Below, piece after piece: positions 2,325 to 28,665 of a stretch of 37,594 bases of DNA. The notes under the pieces were generated by a model. That model did not search any database. It saw only the letters and a program-made list of their open reading frames with translations, and was not told where the DNA came from. The stretch's first letter is position 1. Every line of letters begins with the position of its first letter. Location of the stretch: IMG/VR virus record IMGVR_UViG_3300044712_002656, positions 1 to 37,594 of that record. The stretch is one strand, 5' to 3'. The DNA comes from a virus. The translations under genes and the position numbers were made by a program.

Positions 2325-2932
2325 AATTGAAAACTCACATTGATTTTTATTGTGCGCTGCGCGTCTAAATAATTCCACATCAACAATGGTGTGACTGTAA
2401 GATCATAATAGAACTGATACCCGATTCCCATTCCGACGCTTTTCAAATCCGCCGCAAAGACCGGTGCGAATATTTTACCCTCTATTTTTAGAAGAGAGAT
2501 TGAGACGGAAGGCGAGGCGGCCGCCGATCCTAAATTAAACCCGGCAGCTGCAAAGATTCCAAATTGAAGTATTGGCGACGAATAATTTGTTAGCCGCACT
2601 TCTGTAGAGTCACCTTGCCGGGGAACATGGATCTCACCATTAATTGTCTCTATAATCTGCACGGTTTCTTTGCCTTTAATGGTGATCACTCTCTTTATAT
2701 CCGATTCTTTTACATTCCTGGGGAGTTTTGAAACTGGTTTCACCGGCTTTTCAAACGGCGTTGATTTGGGCTTATACTCCTGAATAACGACCGGCAAATA
2801 CGCGCTGTCCGTGGGAAGAACAACCCGGTCGGGCAAATCCCCGACCGGGCCACATTGTCGCAACGTGAGGCAAATGTACGCGATTACGAGGCTCACAATA
2901 ATGTAACTCGCGTATTTTAAACCATCTTTCAC
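2321..2932 (-). CDS. Membrane-anchored protein with proline-rich linker, unknown function
   Basis: I do not recognise a family. The 203-residue product has one N-terminal hydrophobic segment (about residues 7-24, YASYIIVSLVIAYICLTL) that could anchor it in the inner membrane. A proline/lysine-rich linker (about 50-70) follows, then a beta-rich C-terminal half ending in NVSFQL, a pattern common in outer-membrane strands. The start is GTG, overlapping the stop of the methylase gene (GTGA), and its own stop overlaps the portal start, so it is embedded in the packaging operon. An envelope-spanning role, for example in lysis, is possible from topology only; neither a lipobox nor a clear spanin coiled coil is seen. 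Confidence 0.7.
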   Translation of the reverse strand: MKDGLKYASYIIVSLVIAYICLTLRQCGPVGDLPDRVVLPTDSAYLPVVIQEYKPKSTPFEKPVKPVSKLPRNVKESDIKRVITIKGKETVQIIETINGEIHVPRQGDSTEVRLTNYSSPILQFGIFAAAGFNLGSAAASPSVSISLLKIEGKIFAPVFAADLKSVGMGIGYQFYYDLTVTPLLMWNYLDAQRTIKINVSFQL

Positions 2933-3798
2933 GCACGTTCCTTTGTTGATTGTTTTACCTTCACCCGACGATGATTCTTCGCCGCCGGTCGGTCCGCAGA
3001 ATATGCCGCTCCGGGCTTCAACACTTTCGGCATTGGATAATTGCTCACCAGAATTTCAGTACGCGGCTCCGGATTATTAATTTTTGCCAGAGTTACCCGG
3101 GCTTTGATCTTCTGAATCTGATACCCTTTGAATAGTTTCATCACAAACGGATCGTCATTGCACGACAGGAGAAACTTCCCTTTTATATTGTCAAGCAGAT
3201 CCTTCAGCTGCTGCCATTCCTCCAGCGATAAAAGATTGTAATTGCTCTCACCGCCTTTTGTGCCCGGGTATGGAGGGTCAAGATAAAAGAACGCATCCGG
3301 AGAGTCATACATTTTTATGCACTTATCAAAGCTGGCGCATTCAATGTGAACGCCCTTCAGCCGTTCCGATACCTGATCGATATAGTCCCGCGATTTGGTT
3401 ACCGAATGAATGCCATTCCTTGCGGTACCGAACGTCATCCCCATTGCTCCGAACGAATCCTGCAGCCGCGCCCAAAACATAAATGCGCGTTCAACCTCAT
3501 CGAGCGGCCGCGTTGTTGAATTCCGAAACTCATTCCAGAGTGCCCGGGAGTGAAGCCAATTCTTTGAACGCTCGGCGAGCTCAGCCGGTCGGTGTTTAAC
3601 AACACGGAAAAAATTAACGAGCATATCGTTCTTATCATTGAACACTTCTCCGGCAGAAGGCTCCTTCTCAAGAAGTATTGCAGCGGACCCACCGAACACA
3701 TCGATGTAGCCCTTGTAAGAATCGTGCGGAGGAAATGCCGATACCACTTGTTTGCGGATCGGCGATTTGCCTCCTGGATATGCGAACAGTTTGTTCAT
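2929..3798 (-). CDS. dam: DNA adenine N6-methyltransferase, D12/Dam class
   Basis: This protein transfers a methyl group from S-adenosylmethionine to adenine in DNA, probably at GATC judging by the family. The Dam-type order of motifs is present: YPGGKSPI near residue 7 and DVFGGSAAI near 33 (SAM binding), NDKNDMLVNFFR near 54, and the catalytic DPPY at about 174-177. The 289-residue length is normal for the class. I chose the ATG at 3798 because AGAGGTG lies at suitable distance upstream; the longer frame adds 19 unlikely residues. It sits inside the packaging operon between small unknown genes and the portal. It could protect phage DNA from host restriction or modulate transposition, as methylation does in other transposable elements. 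Confidence 0.93.
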   Translation of the reverse strand: MNKLFAYPGGKSPIRKQVVSAFPPHDSYKGYIDVFGGSAAILLEKEPSAGEVFNDKNDMLVNFFRVVKHRPAELAERSKNWLHSRALWNEFRNSTTRPLDEVERAFMFWARLQDSFGAMGMTFGTARNGIHSVTKSRDYIDQVSERLKGVHIECASFDKCIKMYDSPDAFFYLDPPYPGTKGGESNYNLLSLEEWQQLKDLLDNIKGKFLLSCNDDPFVMKLFKGYQIQKIKARVTLAKINNPEPRTEILVSNYPMPKVLKPGAAYSADRPAAKNHRRVKVKQSTKERA

Positions 3799-3826
3799 TA
3801 AATCTGCACCTCTATAAATAATTAAT

Positions 3827-3858
3827 AAAATGTTTATGCATTGGTGTTCGAACATTTT
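3827..3858 (-). other. AT-rich hairpin upstream of the methylase gene
   Basis: An 8-bp inverted repeat (AAAATGTT and AACATTTT) encloses a 16-nt loop in the short gap before the methylase ribosome site, in very AT-rich surroundings. It may act as a weak terminator or processing site in the leftward transcript. Confidence 0.3.
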
Positions 3859-24210: not shown

Positions 24211-24864
24211 ATGAATAATATCAAACCTCTTATTGGAACGCTTCTCGCCGGAATAATCATCGGCTTTTCCGTCGCCCGGATATACACGTACCAAAAAGCG
24301 AATGAATCTGTGCACGAAGCGTACGGGATTGTTGATTTTATTATTGCGGACTGGACCGGGATTTCCGACGAAGACTCTATTATAGATCCCGACACTTCTT
24401 TCTCCGCACAGATGTCTGCCCGGAAAGAACTGCCGGTGGCCAGACTTGGTTTTTTCCCGGACACCATCAGATCGCTGGCGTTGATGGTACAGGGACGGTA
24501 CAAGGTTCCGGCGGCAGTAACAATGGCACAGTGGGCATTAGAAAGTTCTTGGGGGACAAATAATCTCGGCGTCAGTAATTATTTTGGGCACACCTATAAT
24601 GCAACAATGCAATACTCACAGCTGCGATCCTTTGTTATACGCACGGAAAAGATTGGGAACAAAAGAACTTTAAAGTTCACCGTTTATAAAAACATTGCAG
24701 AATGCTTTGATGCACATGGGAAATATCTATCATCATCCAAACATTATCGCGCAGCATTTTATACTTCTTCGCCGGAGAATTTTGCCCGGGCGCTTGGCAT
24801 TTATGCCGAGGATAATGAATACACGACAAAACTGATCGGCATTATGCGCCGATATAAATTGTAA
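24211..24864 (+). CDS. Endolysin: glucosaminidase (GH73/FlgJ-type) with signal-anchor N-terminus
   Basis: The 217-residue enzyme should cleave peptidoglycan glycan strands. An uncleaved hydrophobic N-terminus (about residues 5-22, glycine- and alanine-containing, as in SAR endolysins) would carry it to the inner membrane. The GH73 domain covers about residues 80-217, with the catalytic glutamate in WALESSWG (E111) and NNLGVSNYFGH following. The neighbouring holin-like gene supports a lysis cassette. Confidence 0.85.
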   Translation: MNNIKPLIGTLLAGIIIGFSVARIYTYQKANESVHEAYGIVDFIIADWTGISDEDSIIDPDTSFSAQMSARKELPVARLGFFPDTIRSLALMVQGRYKVPAAVTMAQWALESSWGTNNLGVSNYFGHTYNATMQYSQLRSFVIRTEKIGNKRTLKFTVYKNIAECFDAHGKYLSSSKHYRAAFYTSSPENFARALGIYAEDNEYTTKLIGIMRRYKL

Positions 24865-24873
24865 GGATAATCT

Positions 24874-25167
24874 ATGGACTCGCTTGAATTATCCGCTCAA
24901 TCAGAGCGTGAACAAAGAATTGGTAAACGGACATTGCTGGTGCAGCAGCAAACCAATATTCGAATTCACATTGATGCGATTATCCGGTCCGTCCGGCAGG
25001 ACCACCTCGGCATTCGAGATGCGGAAAACAGGTATGTAGAAACCATTGATTATACCAAAGCAATTTTCTTGCTGAGAGAAGCTTCAAAAAAGCGCAAAGA
25101 ACTTGAAACCATCAATAAAGAGATCGCCGCTTTGAATGCAGCGCTCGGAAATGACGGTAACGAGTGA
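24874..25167 (+). CDS. Coiled-coil protein of the lysis region
   Basis: A 97-residue highly charged, helical protein with long predicted coiled coils and no membrane segment. It has AAGGA upstream of the start and lies between the endolysin and the holin candidate. It could be a lysis accessory or a head-assembly factor; no family was recognised. Confidence 0.55.
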   Translation: MDSLELSAQSEREQRIGKRTLLVQQQTNIRIHIDAIIRSVRQDHLGIRDAENRYVETIDYTKAIFLLREASKKRKELETINKEIAALNAALGNDGNE

Positions 25168-25463
25168 TGATTACACCAAAATACATCGCGGCGATCAGCT
25201 CTATAATTGCAAGCATCAATTCATTGCTGTTCATTCCAGGAATAGACACCGTGCTTATCGTTGCTCTGATCTTTTTAGTGATCATCATTTCGTTGATCGT
25301 AAATCTGTTCTTTTTCTGGGAAGCCCTGCGGAAGATCCTTTTCAAAGAGCTCTTGTCAAAATTTTATTTGGATCTGTATTCGAACGATGAGTTCGTTGAT
25401 TTCTTGATCGAGAAACGCAACACCCGCAAAAACAAAACACATAAGAGCGTGCATGAAAATTAA
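25167..25463 (+). CDS. Holin-like membrane protein
   Basis: The 98-residue product has two hydrophobic segments (about residues 6-24 and 29-52, the second very long: VLIVALIFLVIIISLIVNLFFFW) and a basic, charged C-terminal tail. That topology, together with its position right after the endolysin, suggests the pore-former that times lysis. Its ATG overlaps the preceding stop (TGATG), and its end overlaps the protease gene start by 11 nt. Confidence 0.65.
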   Translation: MITPKYIAAISSIIASINSLLFIPGIDTVLIVALIFLVIIISLIVNLFFFWEALRKILFKELLSKFYLDLYSNDEFVDFLIEKRNTRKNKTHKSVHEN

Positions 25464-26658
25464 ACTCAAAGACAATACGATGGTGGTGGTCCGTGCAACG
25501 GACATGCAGCAGTTATCCGGTATCCCAACGGAGATTATGGTTGCACCGTTTGGTAAATGGAAAGGCTACACCACGGACGACGGATCGCTTGTTGAGTTTG
25601 AGATAACCAAAGAGCTCGCAGCCAAAGCTGTTGAATACCATCGCTCACTGAAACAGCGCTTTCCCTCCCGAGATCTGGTGATCGATTACGAACATCAAAC
25701 CGGCGACGATTCACAGGCACCGGCGGCCGGATGGATTGAATCCGACATCTATCTTAAAGACGATGGCCTCTATGCCCGGGTAAAAGAATGGACAGCGAAA
25801 GCAGCAGAATATATCCGGAACAAGGAATACCGGTATCTCTCACCGGTACTGGTCTATAATTCTCCGGATAAACAAACCGGTGTCCGGGTTCCACTGCGAT
25901 TGGTGAATGTTGCGCTGACGAATGAACCGTTTATCGACAGCATTAAACCGATCACCGCAAAAGATAATACAGTACCGACAATTATTTATTTAACCGATAC
26001 TATTTCACAACCAACAAAAGGAGATACAACCATGTTAGAACAAATTCTGCAACTGCTCGGCCTGGCTGCCGGAGCAACATTCGAAGATGTCAAAAAGGTG
26101 ATCGAAGGCTGGAAGAATTCCGCATCGACCGTCGCTGCCAAGTACAAAGCCGCCATGACCGAGCTCGGTATGACCGATGAAACTCCGGTTGCCGACGTGA
26201 AGGCATTTGCTCTGAAGTATAACACGATCCTGCAGGAGCTGGGTGTAAAGCCAACCGACTCTGTCGATTCAATCAAACAGGTGATTGTTGCTGCAAAGGA
26301 TAAAGGTCAATCACAGCAGTTCGATCTGAAAGACTACGTAAAGAAGTCCGATCACGATGCACTGGCCCTGCAGCTGAAGACCCGTGATGCAAAAGAGATT
26401 ATTGCAAAGCATGTTGCACGCGGCGCCGTTGCTGCGTATGAAGTCGATGATCTGCTCGCCGATGTTACCGGCAATAAATTGGAATTAAAGGATCTTGGTG
26501 CGCGGCTGGAAAAACGCGCCGACTTTTCCATTGTGCCGCTGAATGAGATCGATACAAAAACGATCACTGCGAAAGACCCCGCCGCCGATCCGGAAACGAT
26601 CAGGATTGCAGCAATGGCCGGTGTAACTGCAGATGACATCAAAAAACACGGAAAATAA
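25453..26658 (+). CDS. Head maturation protease / scaffold (Mu I-like)
   Basis: The 401-residue product matches the Mu I protease layout. An N-terminal protease (about 1-160) includes VIDYEHQT at 76-83, APAAGWI at 89-95 and YLSPVLVY near 128; a helical scaffold domain follows. It shapes the prohead and is then degraded. A strong internal ribosome site and in-frame ATG at 26032 should yield the scaffold alone, as Z is nested in I of Mu. It is followed by the decoration and capsid genes. Confidence 0.88.
   Translation: MKIKLKDNTMVVVRATDMQQLSGIPTEIMVAPFGKWKGYTTDDGSLVEFEITKELAAKAVEYHRSLKQRFPSRDLVIDYEHQTGDDSQAPAAGWIESDIYLKDDGLYARVKEWTAKAAEYIRNKEYRYLSPVLVYNSPDKQTGVRVPLRLVNVALTNEPFIDSIKPITAKDNTVPTIIYLTDTISQPTKGDTTMLEQILQLLGLAAGATFEDVKKVIEGWKNSASTVAAKYKAAMTELGMTDETPVADVKAFALKYNTILQELGVKPTDSVDSIKQVIVAAKDKGQSQQFDLKDYVKKSDHDALALQLKTRDAKEIIAKHVARGAVAAYEVDDLLADVTGNKLELKDLGARLEKRADFSIVPLNEIDTKTITAKDPAADPETIRIAAMAGVTADDIKKHGK
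26032..26658 (+). CDS. Nested scaffold protein from an internal start
   Basis: AAAGGAG eight bases before an in-frame ATG (26032) inside the protease gene predicts a separate 208-residue product. It is helical, with regular lysine/aspartate-rich segments and no protease motifs. By analogy with Mu Z nested in I, it would be the main scaffold, made in excess of the protease. Confidence 0.7.
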   Translation: MLEQILQLLGLAAGATFEDVKKVIEGWKNSASTVAAKYKAAMTELGMTDETPVADVKAFALKYNTILQELGVKPTDSVDSIKQVIVAAKDKGQSQQFDLKDYVKKSDHDALALQLKTRDAKEIIAKHVARGAVAAYEVDDLLADVTGNKLELKDLGARLEKRADFSIVPLNEIDTKTITAKDPAADPETIRIAAMAGVTADDIKKHGK

Positions 26659-26690: not shown

Positions 26691-26748
26691 CTTCTTCTGA
26701 AATAATGTTGTATCAATTATCTATCACAATATAAAAGGAGTTTGAATT

Positions 26749-27531
26749 ATGAAATATCTGCGTGAAACATTCGCAAAGCTTTACTCCGGTCCTCGCATTA
26801 TTGTTTTGTTGCTGATTGGCGTGGCAATGACGGTGGACCATTTAATGGCATCAACGCTGGGTGCATATTCTCTGGCAATGGCAGCGCTGGCCGAAGATCG
26901 ATCAACAGAAGAGCGTCCAGGTCAGTACCGAACGTATGGCGTGAAAGCAGCCACAAAAATTTATGCCGGAAGTATGGTGTGCGTTGACGCCGACGGGTAT
27001 GCCGTTCCTGCAGCTGATACGGCCGGATTAATTTTTGTTGGCCGGGCTGAAGAGCAAATTGATAATACCGACGGCTCCAGCGGTGATCTGAGCATTACTG
27101 TTAAGCGCGGAACGTTTAATTGGGATGCAACCGGTTTGACGGCGGCTAATGTTGGTGATGCAGTATTTGTTCTGGATGATCAGACGGTCGGTATCGCTTC
27201 CGGTTCGACGAACAAAGTATTTGCCGGTGTCATCAGCGAAGTTGTTTCCTCAACATCCGCATGGGTGGAACAGGACTTCACCCTGCAGCAAGTATCGGCA
27301 GCCATTGCAATTGCCGATGCAGCTGCGTTAACCGTGGTTGATACCAATTTAGCGGTTGTCACTGGTGTTGACGGTGCGGGAAGCAACGCTGCTTCTAAGG
27401 CAGATGTTGATACTCGTTTGGCAACACAGGAAACATTTAACGACCGAGTGATTGTCGATCTTGGCGTGCTGCGAACAAAGCTTAACGCACTGCTCACGGC
27501 GCTCCGGAACGCGGGAATTATCAAAACGTAA
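26749..27531 (+). CDS. Head decoration / stabilisation protein with hydrophobic N-terminus (DUF2190-like)
   Basis: The central part (YRTYGVKAATKIYAGSMVC, then GLIFVGRAEEQIDNTDGSS, then ITVKRGTFNWD) reads like DUF2190-type capsid cement proteins placed between scaffold and capsid genes. The first ~48 residues are unusual: a basic start, then a long hydrophobic stretch (RIIVLLLIGVAMTV), then AMAALA-ED, which could be a signal-type cleavage site. The start is not in doubt: AAAAGGAG precedes the ATG. A C-terminal helix (FNDRVIVDLGVLRTKLNALL) may trimerise it. Confidence 0.7.
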   Translation: MKYLRETFAKLYSGPRIIVLLLIGVAMTVDHLMASTLGAYSLAMAALAEDRSTEERPGQYRTYGVKAATKIYAGSMVCVDADGYAVPAADTAGLIFVGRAEEQIDNTDGSSGDLSITVKRGTFNWDATGLTAANVGDAVFVLDDQTVGIASGSTNKVFAGVISEVVSSTSAWVEQDFTLQQVSAAIAIADAAALTVVDTNLAVVTGVDGAGSNAASKADVDTRLATQETFNDRVIVDLGVLRTKLNALLTALRNAGIIKT

Positions 27532-27541
27532 AATTAATAAT

Positions 27542-27570
27542 CCGCCATCCCCGCTCGTAAAGGGGATGGC
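27542..27570 (+). other. Strong 10-bp hairpin between decoration and capsid genes
   Basis: CGCCATCCCC (27542-27551) pairs exactly with GGGGATGGCG (27561-27570). No T tract follows, so it is more likely an mRNA processing or stability element that lets capsid mRNA accumulate than a full terminator. Confidence 0.65.
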
Positions 27571-27627
27571 GATTGCTTTGCGATCAAAGTTGTTTTTATT
27601 CATTCACCAAAAAAGGAGATACTTGTT

Positions 27628-28665
27628 ATGTTGAACAAATTCTTTCACAAGTCAATCGGAATGATGATCGGGATTTTCTCTCTCCTCGTCATGTCGGTTG
27701 TTCCGGCATTTGCTGGCCAGGGATATTCGGTCCCGTCCGCTCTGTACGGTATTGGCGGTGCGTTCGTGGTTGGGTTGGTGGTCAACAGCTCAACATTGAC
27801 GTCGTTGTATACGACGTTCAAAACCGTTTTCAATAAGGCATTTTCTGAAGCCACACCGCAATATACCAAAATTGCAATGGTGGTCCCCTCTACGACAAAA
27901 ACAGAAATTCACGAATGGATCGGCGCGTTTCCCAAAATGCGTCAATGGATCAAAGAACGGAAAATTTCCAATCTGAAGGGCTTTAAATGGTCCATTGAAA
28001 ATAAGGATTGGGAATCAACGGTCGCTGTTCCCCGGAACGATATTGAAGATGATACGTTCGGACTGTTCACCAATTTGTTTTCGTCAATGGGTGGTTCGGC
28101 GAAAAAACATCCCGACCAAATCGTGTTCAAGCTTCTTAATGACGGCTTCACCGCTTTGTGTTATGATGGCAAAGCATTCTTCGCCACAGATCACCAGGGC
28201 GGATCGAATAAAGCAACTGCTGTTCTTAGTCCGACGAGTTATGCCGCAGCCCTTGCATCGATTGGCCGCATGAAGGATGATACCGGCGAAGCGATCTTTG
28301 ACGGTACGGAGAAATTGACCCTCATTACCGGTCCGGAACTGGAAGCCACGGCCAAAAAGATTCTCTTTAACGATTATGTTTCCGTCGCTAACGGTTCGCA
28401 GGAAAACAACATCCATAAAGGATCGGCGGAATATGTTAAATCGCCGCAGATTACCAGCGCGACGGCGTGGTTCATTACCATTGAAAACAATGGTATTAAA
28501 CCGCTGATCTTCCAGGAGCGCAAGAAACCTGAGTTCCTTGCACTCAACGACCCGAAGGACGCGAATGTTTTTATGAGCAAGGAATTCCTCTTCGGCGTCG
28601 ATTCGCGTGACAATGCGGGGTATGGCCTGTACCACTTTGCGTACGGCAGCACCGGTTTAGGTTAA
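27628..28665 (+). CDS. Major capsid protein (Mu T-like) with signal-peptide-like N-terminus
   Basis: From about residue 54 the protein follows Mu gpT: SLYTTFKTVFNKAF, YTKIAMVVPSTTKTEIHEW, FKWSIENKDWESTVAVPRNDIEDD, KLLNDGFTALCYDGKAFF, a terminal FLFGVDSRDNAGYGLY. It forms the icosahedral shell. Residues 1-29 instead look like a Sec signal peptide (basic start, hydrophobic core, cleavage-like PAFA-GQ), and a second hydrophobic stretch follows at 40-52. The AAAAGGAG ribosome site fixes the ATG at 27628, so the extension is translated. Its removal by the head protease is one explanation. Confidence 0.92.
   Translation: MLNKFFHKSIGMMIGIFSLLVMSVVPAFAGQGYSVPSALYGIGGAFVVGLVVNSSTLTSLYTTFKTVFNKAFSEATPQYTKIAMVVPSTTKTEIHEWIGAFPKMRQWIKERKISNLKGFKWSIENKDWESTVAVPRNDIEDDTFGLFTNLFSSMGGSAKKHPDQIVFKLLNDGFTALCYDGKAFFATDHQGGSNKATAVLSPTSYAAALASIGRMKDDTGEAIFDGTEKLTLITGPELEATAKKILFNDYVSVANGSQENNIHKGSAEYVKSPQITSATAWFITIENNGIKPLIFQERKKPEFLALNDPKDANVFMSKEFLFGVDSRDNAGYGLYHFAYGSTGLG

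Follow-up and report, generated by a model that had tools for sequence, protein, structure and literature searches.

Hydrophobic extensions on two head proteins of a Mu-like phage

Two adjacent head genes of a Mu-like phage, encoding the major capsid protein and a decoration-type protein, begin with hydrophobic N-terminal extensions that precede the start used by most of their homologues. Comparison with relatives shows a segment of about 30–70 residues, with its own predicted ribosome site, upstream of the ancestral start, and this segment has been gained repeatedly. The extension is an accessory trait that comes and goes, and it may be found on just one of the two proteins. We propose, with belief and doubt about evenly balanced, that these extensions are lineage-specific, recurrently gained membrane-targeting modules, resembling signal peptides or signal anchors, on ordinary Mu-type head proteins.

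The window, i.e. the whole stretch of DNA analysed, covers positions 1–37,594 (37.6 kb) of the Mu-like phage record IMGVR_UViG_3300044712_002656. It encodes a Mu portal, F, an I/Z protease-scaffold, gpT, Gp36, a Mu-type transposase and a CI-like repressor; a D12-class adenine DNA methyltransferase (2929–3855) adjoins the portal and terminase genes. The gene of the phrog_1731 family sits between the protease and capsid genes. The features considered below are the following:

25453..26658, + strand: Mu I-type head protease / Z scaffold (PF10123, E=4.3e-45, residues 28–398), full length and retained
26733..26740, + strand: ribosome-binding site of the decoration gene, AAAAGGAG, read directly; a strong Shine-Dalgarno is present in extended relatives too
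26749..27531, + strand: decoration-type head protein, 260 aa, phrog_1731 (PHROGs E=3.1e-37, match from residue 44)
26749..26880, + strand: decoration N-terminal extension, about residues 1–44, with its hydrophobic core at residues 17–33
26881..26901, + strand: AALAEDR (the 'ALA-E site'), homologous to the M-[TA]-A-L-[AT]-x-D-R N-terminus of unextended relatives
27610..27619, + strand: ribosome-binding site of the capsid gene, AAAAAGGAGA, read directly
27628..28665, + strand: major capsid protein, 345 aa, Mu gpT family (PF10124 E=2.5e-82 from residue 57; PHROGs E=2.9e-83)
27628..27777, + strand: capsid N-terminal extension, residues 1–50, the ancestral start lying at about residue 50
27652..27702, + strand: hydrophobic core of the capsid extension, residues 9–25, SIGMMIGIFSLLVMSVV, after a start of net charge +2
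27706..27717, + strand: AFA-G, candidate signal-peptidase-like site, residues 27–30
27739..27783, + strand: second, weak hydrophobic/glycine stretch, residues 38–52, ALYGIGGAFVVGLVV, ending at the ancestral start

Start and translation of the capsid extension

The capsid protein of the window begins with MLNKFFHKSIGMMIGIFSLLVMSVVPAFAGQGYSVPSALYGIGGAFVVGLVVN. Its match to gpT starts at residue 57 with Pfam and at residue 52 with PHROGs, which bears out the extension ahead of the Mu T homology described in the first-pass annotation, and the solved relatives 9jod and 8rkc align from residue 51–52. The match covers PF10124 in full, and the core is of the HK97 type. In most surveyed loci the protein starts with M-[ILV]-[IV]-N, and this ancestral start aligns to residues 50–53 of the window protein. 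At this point the window reads GLVVN, while L001 and L044 read GMVVN, so that the old start survives there as an internal methionine. Since nearly all gpT relatives begin at M-[ILV]-[IV]-N, the extension of the window capsid was added upstream. Mu gpT and JBD30 gp38 (Casadabanvirus) share the family and core with the window protein and have the protease/scaffold gene upstream, with a phrog_1731 gene between the two in many relatives; the Mu and JBD30 proteins start at the ancestral methionine and have no hydrophobic extension, whereas the window protein has about 50 extra residues.

A Shine-Dalgarno run of at least four nucleotides is found at every extended start except that of L091, and almost none at internal starts near the ancestral position. 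Between the window and L087, L044 and L001, dN of the capsid extension is 0.34–0.44 with dS above 1 or saturated, and hydrophobic-for-hydrophobic swaps make up over half of the substitutions in capsid extensions. With conserved Shine-Dalgarno sites and dN/dS below 1, the capsid and decoration extensions both appear to be translated, as had been proposed from the strong ribosome sites of the window. Dual starts, yielding a long membrane form and a short form, were considered and rejected, the internal starts being without ribosome sites apart from single weak cases such as L196. Extensions overlooked through the choice of start were looked for and none was found. Most homologues do lack the extension and have a conserved downstream start, which the first-pass annotation had named as evidence against its claim, yet the finding stands because in the extended relatives the upstream start is conserved together with its ribosome site, and no such site precedes the ancestral internal start. 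An AlphaFold2 model of the capsid protein (8-row alignment, mean pLDDT 46) was too poor to place the extension.

Membrane-like segments and candidate cleavage sites

Hydrophobicity was expressed as the best 17-residue score near the N-terminus on a simple residue scale, lower values being more membrane-like. The window proteins score −0.5 (capsid) and 1.8 (decoration), to be compared with a minimum of 4.0 and a median of 10.8 for canonical capsid homologues (n=228) and with 8.6 and 19.9, respectively, for canonical decoration homologues (n=190). Both values are thus below those of every canonical homologue, and the hydrophobicity exceeds chance. The net charge of the n-region is +2 for the capsid and +3 for the decoration protein, and about +2 in almost all capsid extensions; a membrane-grade segment is present in nearly all extensions of relatives. 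The description of both N-termini as signal-like is therefore confirmed, each having a basic start and a hydrophobic core. Among the other window genes checked, such N-termini occur only in the lysozyme, a holin-like protein and two further proteins of 203 and 195 aa. The lysozyme (24211–24864) is of the glucosaminidase type and its N-terminal membrane segment is signal-anchor-release-like; between its gene and that of the protease, a protein of 99 aa with very hydrophobic segments (25164–25463), kept in L001 and L044, is a likely holin.

A/V-x-A sites are found in 11 of the 15 capsid extensions, for 7.2 expected from shuffles (p=0.02, or p=0.064 with one sequence per lineage), and the candidate site of the window appears as AFA, VFA or AIA in L001, L087 and L044. 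These data weakly support the capsid AFA-G as a plausible signal-peptidase site, in line with its first reading as cleavage-like. A-x-A sites vanish within the L112 lineage and L268 has lost the site, so cleavage at A-x-A cannot be universal. No enrichment was seen in decoration extensions (4 of 16, for 4.8 expected). Capsid extensions, often with A-x-A, thus resemble a cleavable signal peptide, and decoration extensions, without this enrichment, a signal anchor. With Sec signal peptides and anchors both window proteins share the basic start and hydrophobic core, and the capsid alone has a candidate A-x-A site; here these predicted elements stand on a tailed-phage capsid protein.

An M13 procoat-like hairpin was looked for in the capsid extension and not found, the second stretch being weakly hydrophobic and, in L088–L090, very short or absent. 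This stretch of the window capsid recalls M13 procoat, but in several members it is too weak or missing.

The decoration-type protein

The N-terminus of this protein in the window is MKYLRETFAKLYSGPRIIVLLLIGVAMTVDHLMASTLGAYSLAMAALAEDRS. Proteins of phrog_1731 have in common a conserved beta-rich core and a position just upstream of the capsid gene; most of them start at M-[TA]-A-L, whereas the window protein has about 44 added hydrophobic residues. Its extension stops at the ancestral M-[TA]-A-L-x-x-D-R start, the canonical start corresponding to about Met44. Unextended relatives begin with MTALAEDRNT or MTALAKDRNT, which align to the ALA-E motif of the window. This motif, first taken for a cleavage site, is therefore not one, because it is homologous to the ordinary N-terminus of these relatives. 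The protein is assigned as a decoration protein from its PHROGs match, the position of its gene and a weak fold match: with an AlphaFold2 model of mean pLDDT 57 (7-row alignment), a confidence at which the extension could not be placed, the top Foldseek matches were mainly phage or capsid decoration proteins, none below E=0.001. A viral scan with the window protein as sole query retrieved no relatives, whereas an alignment query did.

In L044 (1721–1935) the hydrophobic extension is still encoded by the decoration gene, but at the junction about 28 nt stand in place of 21 nt, so that the frame is shifted; what is left is a short membrane peptide and a core lacking a good start. The locus may represent an assembly error, or a gene that is broken or split.

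Distribution among relatives and repeated gain

The nearest kin of the window phage are prophages of one bacterial class: L087, from an Ignavibacteriales genome, with 80% capsid identity, and L044, from a MAG of the same order, with 71%. In Ignavibacteria-class genomes, all gpT matches of at least 36% identity (80–36%; n=6: L087, L044, L088, L089, L090 and L091) carry the capsid extension, and the more distant matches L092–L094 of the searched class do not. The window, L087, L001, L090 and L091 have the decoration extension; in L044 it is present but cut off by the frameshift, and L088 and L089 lack it. On first reading, two adjacent head genes with such N-termini were not known in other Mu-like phages; the trait is not peculiar to the window phage, its relatives carrying one or both extensions.

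A wider survey of viral contigs gave further extended cases, including capsid-only, decoration-only and double extensions. As this survey was seeded with extended proteins, its counts hold among the matches listed and do not measure prevalence. On a quick tree, 15 of 161 dereplicated capsid cores among these matches are extended, which requires 10 changes, 8 of them forced by strongly supported branches; decoration extensions require 9. One of the 15, L246, has only 16 extra residues and no membrane-grade segment. These residues (L246, 6001–6100; MAEGVEPLSFVGFAGLLVN) match the second glycine/hydrophobic stretch without the signal-like part.

A search of cultured phages with the extension only returned no related extension, and none of B23, Mushu, two Salinibacter phages, phi3LM21 and ThpS-P1 has a hydrophobic extension. 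The N-terminus of L078 joined to an approximate downstream part was also negative as a query, a weak result because the query was approximate. The literature search found no paper describing such head-protein extensions.

The gain of a capsid extension by an insertion of about 120–140 nt is visible in the L112 lineage (L265–L268). In relatives at 58–69% identity, many of which have isolate-type record numbers, a gap of about 20–27 nt with a ribosome site precedes the capsid ATG. In the extended members about 120–140 additional nt supply a new ribosome site and ATG; of the old start, the ATG persists within GGMIVN and its ribosome site has been lost. L300 represents a further gain. In the closest pair of the lineage the extension is 86% identical and the core 97%, and in the other five pairs the values are 38–46% and 90–92%, respectively. 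For these five pairs, dN/dS of the extension is about 0.3–0.6; for the core it is about 0.05–0.15 in the lineage. Every member nevertheless keeps a membrane-grade segment, which survives in only 4–8% of neutral simulations to equal divergence. As the segment rarely survives random mutation, what selection seems to preserve is bulk hydrophobicity and position, not the sequence itself.

In a test of common origin between capsid and decoration extensions, 11 of 130 pairs gave p<0.01 under plain shuffling, mostly because both share the basic-then-hydrophobic layout; a block-preserving test, on one pair of clades chosen after the fact, gave p=0.0056. A shared module is possible, these values being only a hint. 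The block-preserving value concerns the decoration N-termini of L186, L183, L199, L191, L203 and L196, which start with MK/R-x-(I/F)-I-x-x-x-FG-x-M and resemble window-clade capsid N-termini.

Discussion

If the extensions are membrane-targeting modules, their basic start and hydrophobic helix would take the capsid protein, the decoration protein or both, as nascent chains, to the inner membrane by the SRP/Sec/YidC route, and the subunits would be held there until they join a head. A precedent exists in T4, where the prohead is assembled on the inner membrane in contact with YidC, via the portal (PMC9958956); head assembly is membrane-linked there too (gp20, gp40, YidC), but the membrane-bound part is the portal initiator and not the capsid or decoration subunits. 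A closed shell cannot remain anchored through every subunit, so an anchored segment must be removed or returned first. Because the N-arm of the capsid protein is engaged in lattice contacts (PMC11445458), the capsid segment would probably be removed before or during assembly, either by the host signal peptidase at A-x-A or by the head protease of the phage. The decoration segment would probably stay as an uncleaved anchor. Membrane targeting accounts for the extension of either protein, for the conservation of hydrophobicity alone and for the fact that the other such N-termini of the window belong to lysis- or exported-type proteins; fast drift with kept hydrophobicity is also more readily reconciled with a membrane signal or anchor than with a shape-specific scaffold. 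Against it, a single helix following the positive-inside rule would put the capsid domain in the periplasm unless the domain folded first or a second segment returned the chain, and the candidate for this role, the weakly hydrophobic second stretch, is almost absent from L088–L090; the A-x-A sites, too, show weak enrichment and disappear within the L112 lineage. The most explicit form of the proposal, in which acquired signals bring both capsid and decoration subunits to the inner membrane, signal peptidase trims the capsid and heads form at the membrane, is put forward as a tentative scheme that we think rather unlikely to hold in full.

Three meanings had been offered in the first-pass annotation, i.e. 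assembly at the inner membrane, a delta-domain-like scaffold and genuine export. Our results favour membrane association; the scaffold is weakened by the fast drift of the extension and by the retention of a separate protease/scaffold gene. As a delta-like arm, the extension would lie inside the procapsid, help the subunits to meet and be removed by the Mu I-type head protease, whose gene is present in the window. The extension joins the N-arm, which in JBD30 (residues 6–25) is helical in the procapsid and, as the head matures, unfolds to reach across to the neighbouring capsomer (PMC11445458), and T4 gp23 loses 65 N-terminal residues to the T4 protease (PMC9958956). The HK97 delta domain and the gp23 propeptide are likewise N-terminal capsid segments, perhaps removed here as well; unlike them, the window extension is hydrophobic and evolves fast, was added late and occurs alongside a separate protease/scaffold. 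The latter has kept its normal length in those extended phages in which it was found, which means that no scaffold is being replaced, and drift far faster than that of the core is unlike a lattice-fitting part. Moreover, the decoration-type protein has the same kind of extension, and it would miss an internal protease if it joined only mature heads, as do the minor capsid proteins of JBD30, which are of a family different from phrog_1731 (PMC11445458). We consider such an arm improbable, though worth keeping in mind. That the extensions stay in the virion as hydrophobic arms or tails, stabilising contacts between capsomers or making heads stick to membranes, vesicles or surfaces, would suit the missing cleavage-site enrichment of decoration extensions, the position of decoration proteins outside the shell and a sporadic distribution, as expected of an accessory adhesion trait; however, basic-start membrane-grade helices on hundreds of exposed subunits should aggregate virions and the capsid sites are signal-peptidase-like in several lineages, which makes this quite unlikely in our view.

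Genuine Sec export of some or all of the capsid protein to the periplasm, for example as a decoy or to interfere with other phages, the remainder building heads, would agree with the order of n-region, hydrophobic core and A-x-A in most capsid extensions. It appears highly improbable, given that genome packaging is cytoplasmic, that internal starts without ribosome site leave no separate cytoplasmic form evident and that strong selection acts on the core as a capsid protein (dN/dS about 0.05–0.15 in the L112 lineage). Sporadic gains and a fast-evolving sequence could also be expected from a neutral translated by-product of intergenic insertions, tolerated at the capsid N-terminus; this is very doubtful in view of the dN/dS of the extension of about 0.25–0.6, of a hydrophobicity kept against neutral expectation and of the persistence of the window-clade extension from about 80% down to 46% capsid identity.

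Capsid proteins of tailed phages are usually regarded as soluble cytoplasmic building blocks. Here, two abundant head proteins have, separately or together, acquired hydrophobic signal-like N-termini on many independent occasions. Thanks to the insertion history, relatives with the trait can be cleanly paired with relatives that lack it, so that the question is open to direct testing; tools that correct start codons may wrongly trim such extended genes. If the extensions work at the membrane, they would reveal that head assembly includes a localisation step so far unrecognised, or else that heads have a new accessory function. Their recurrent gain points to a delivery of head proteins to the cell membrane in some tailed phages; should heads also form there, this would amount to a membrane-staged assembly route for tailed-phage shells that evolved repeatedly.
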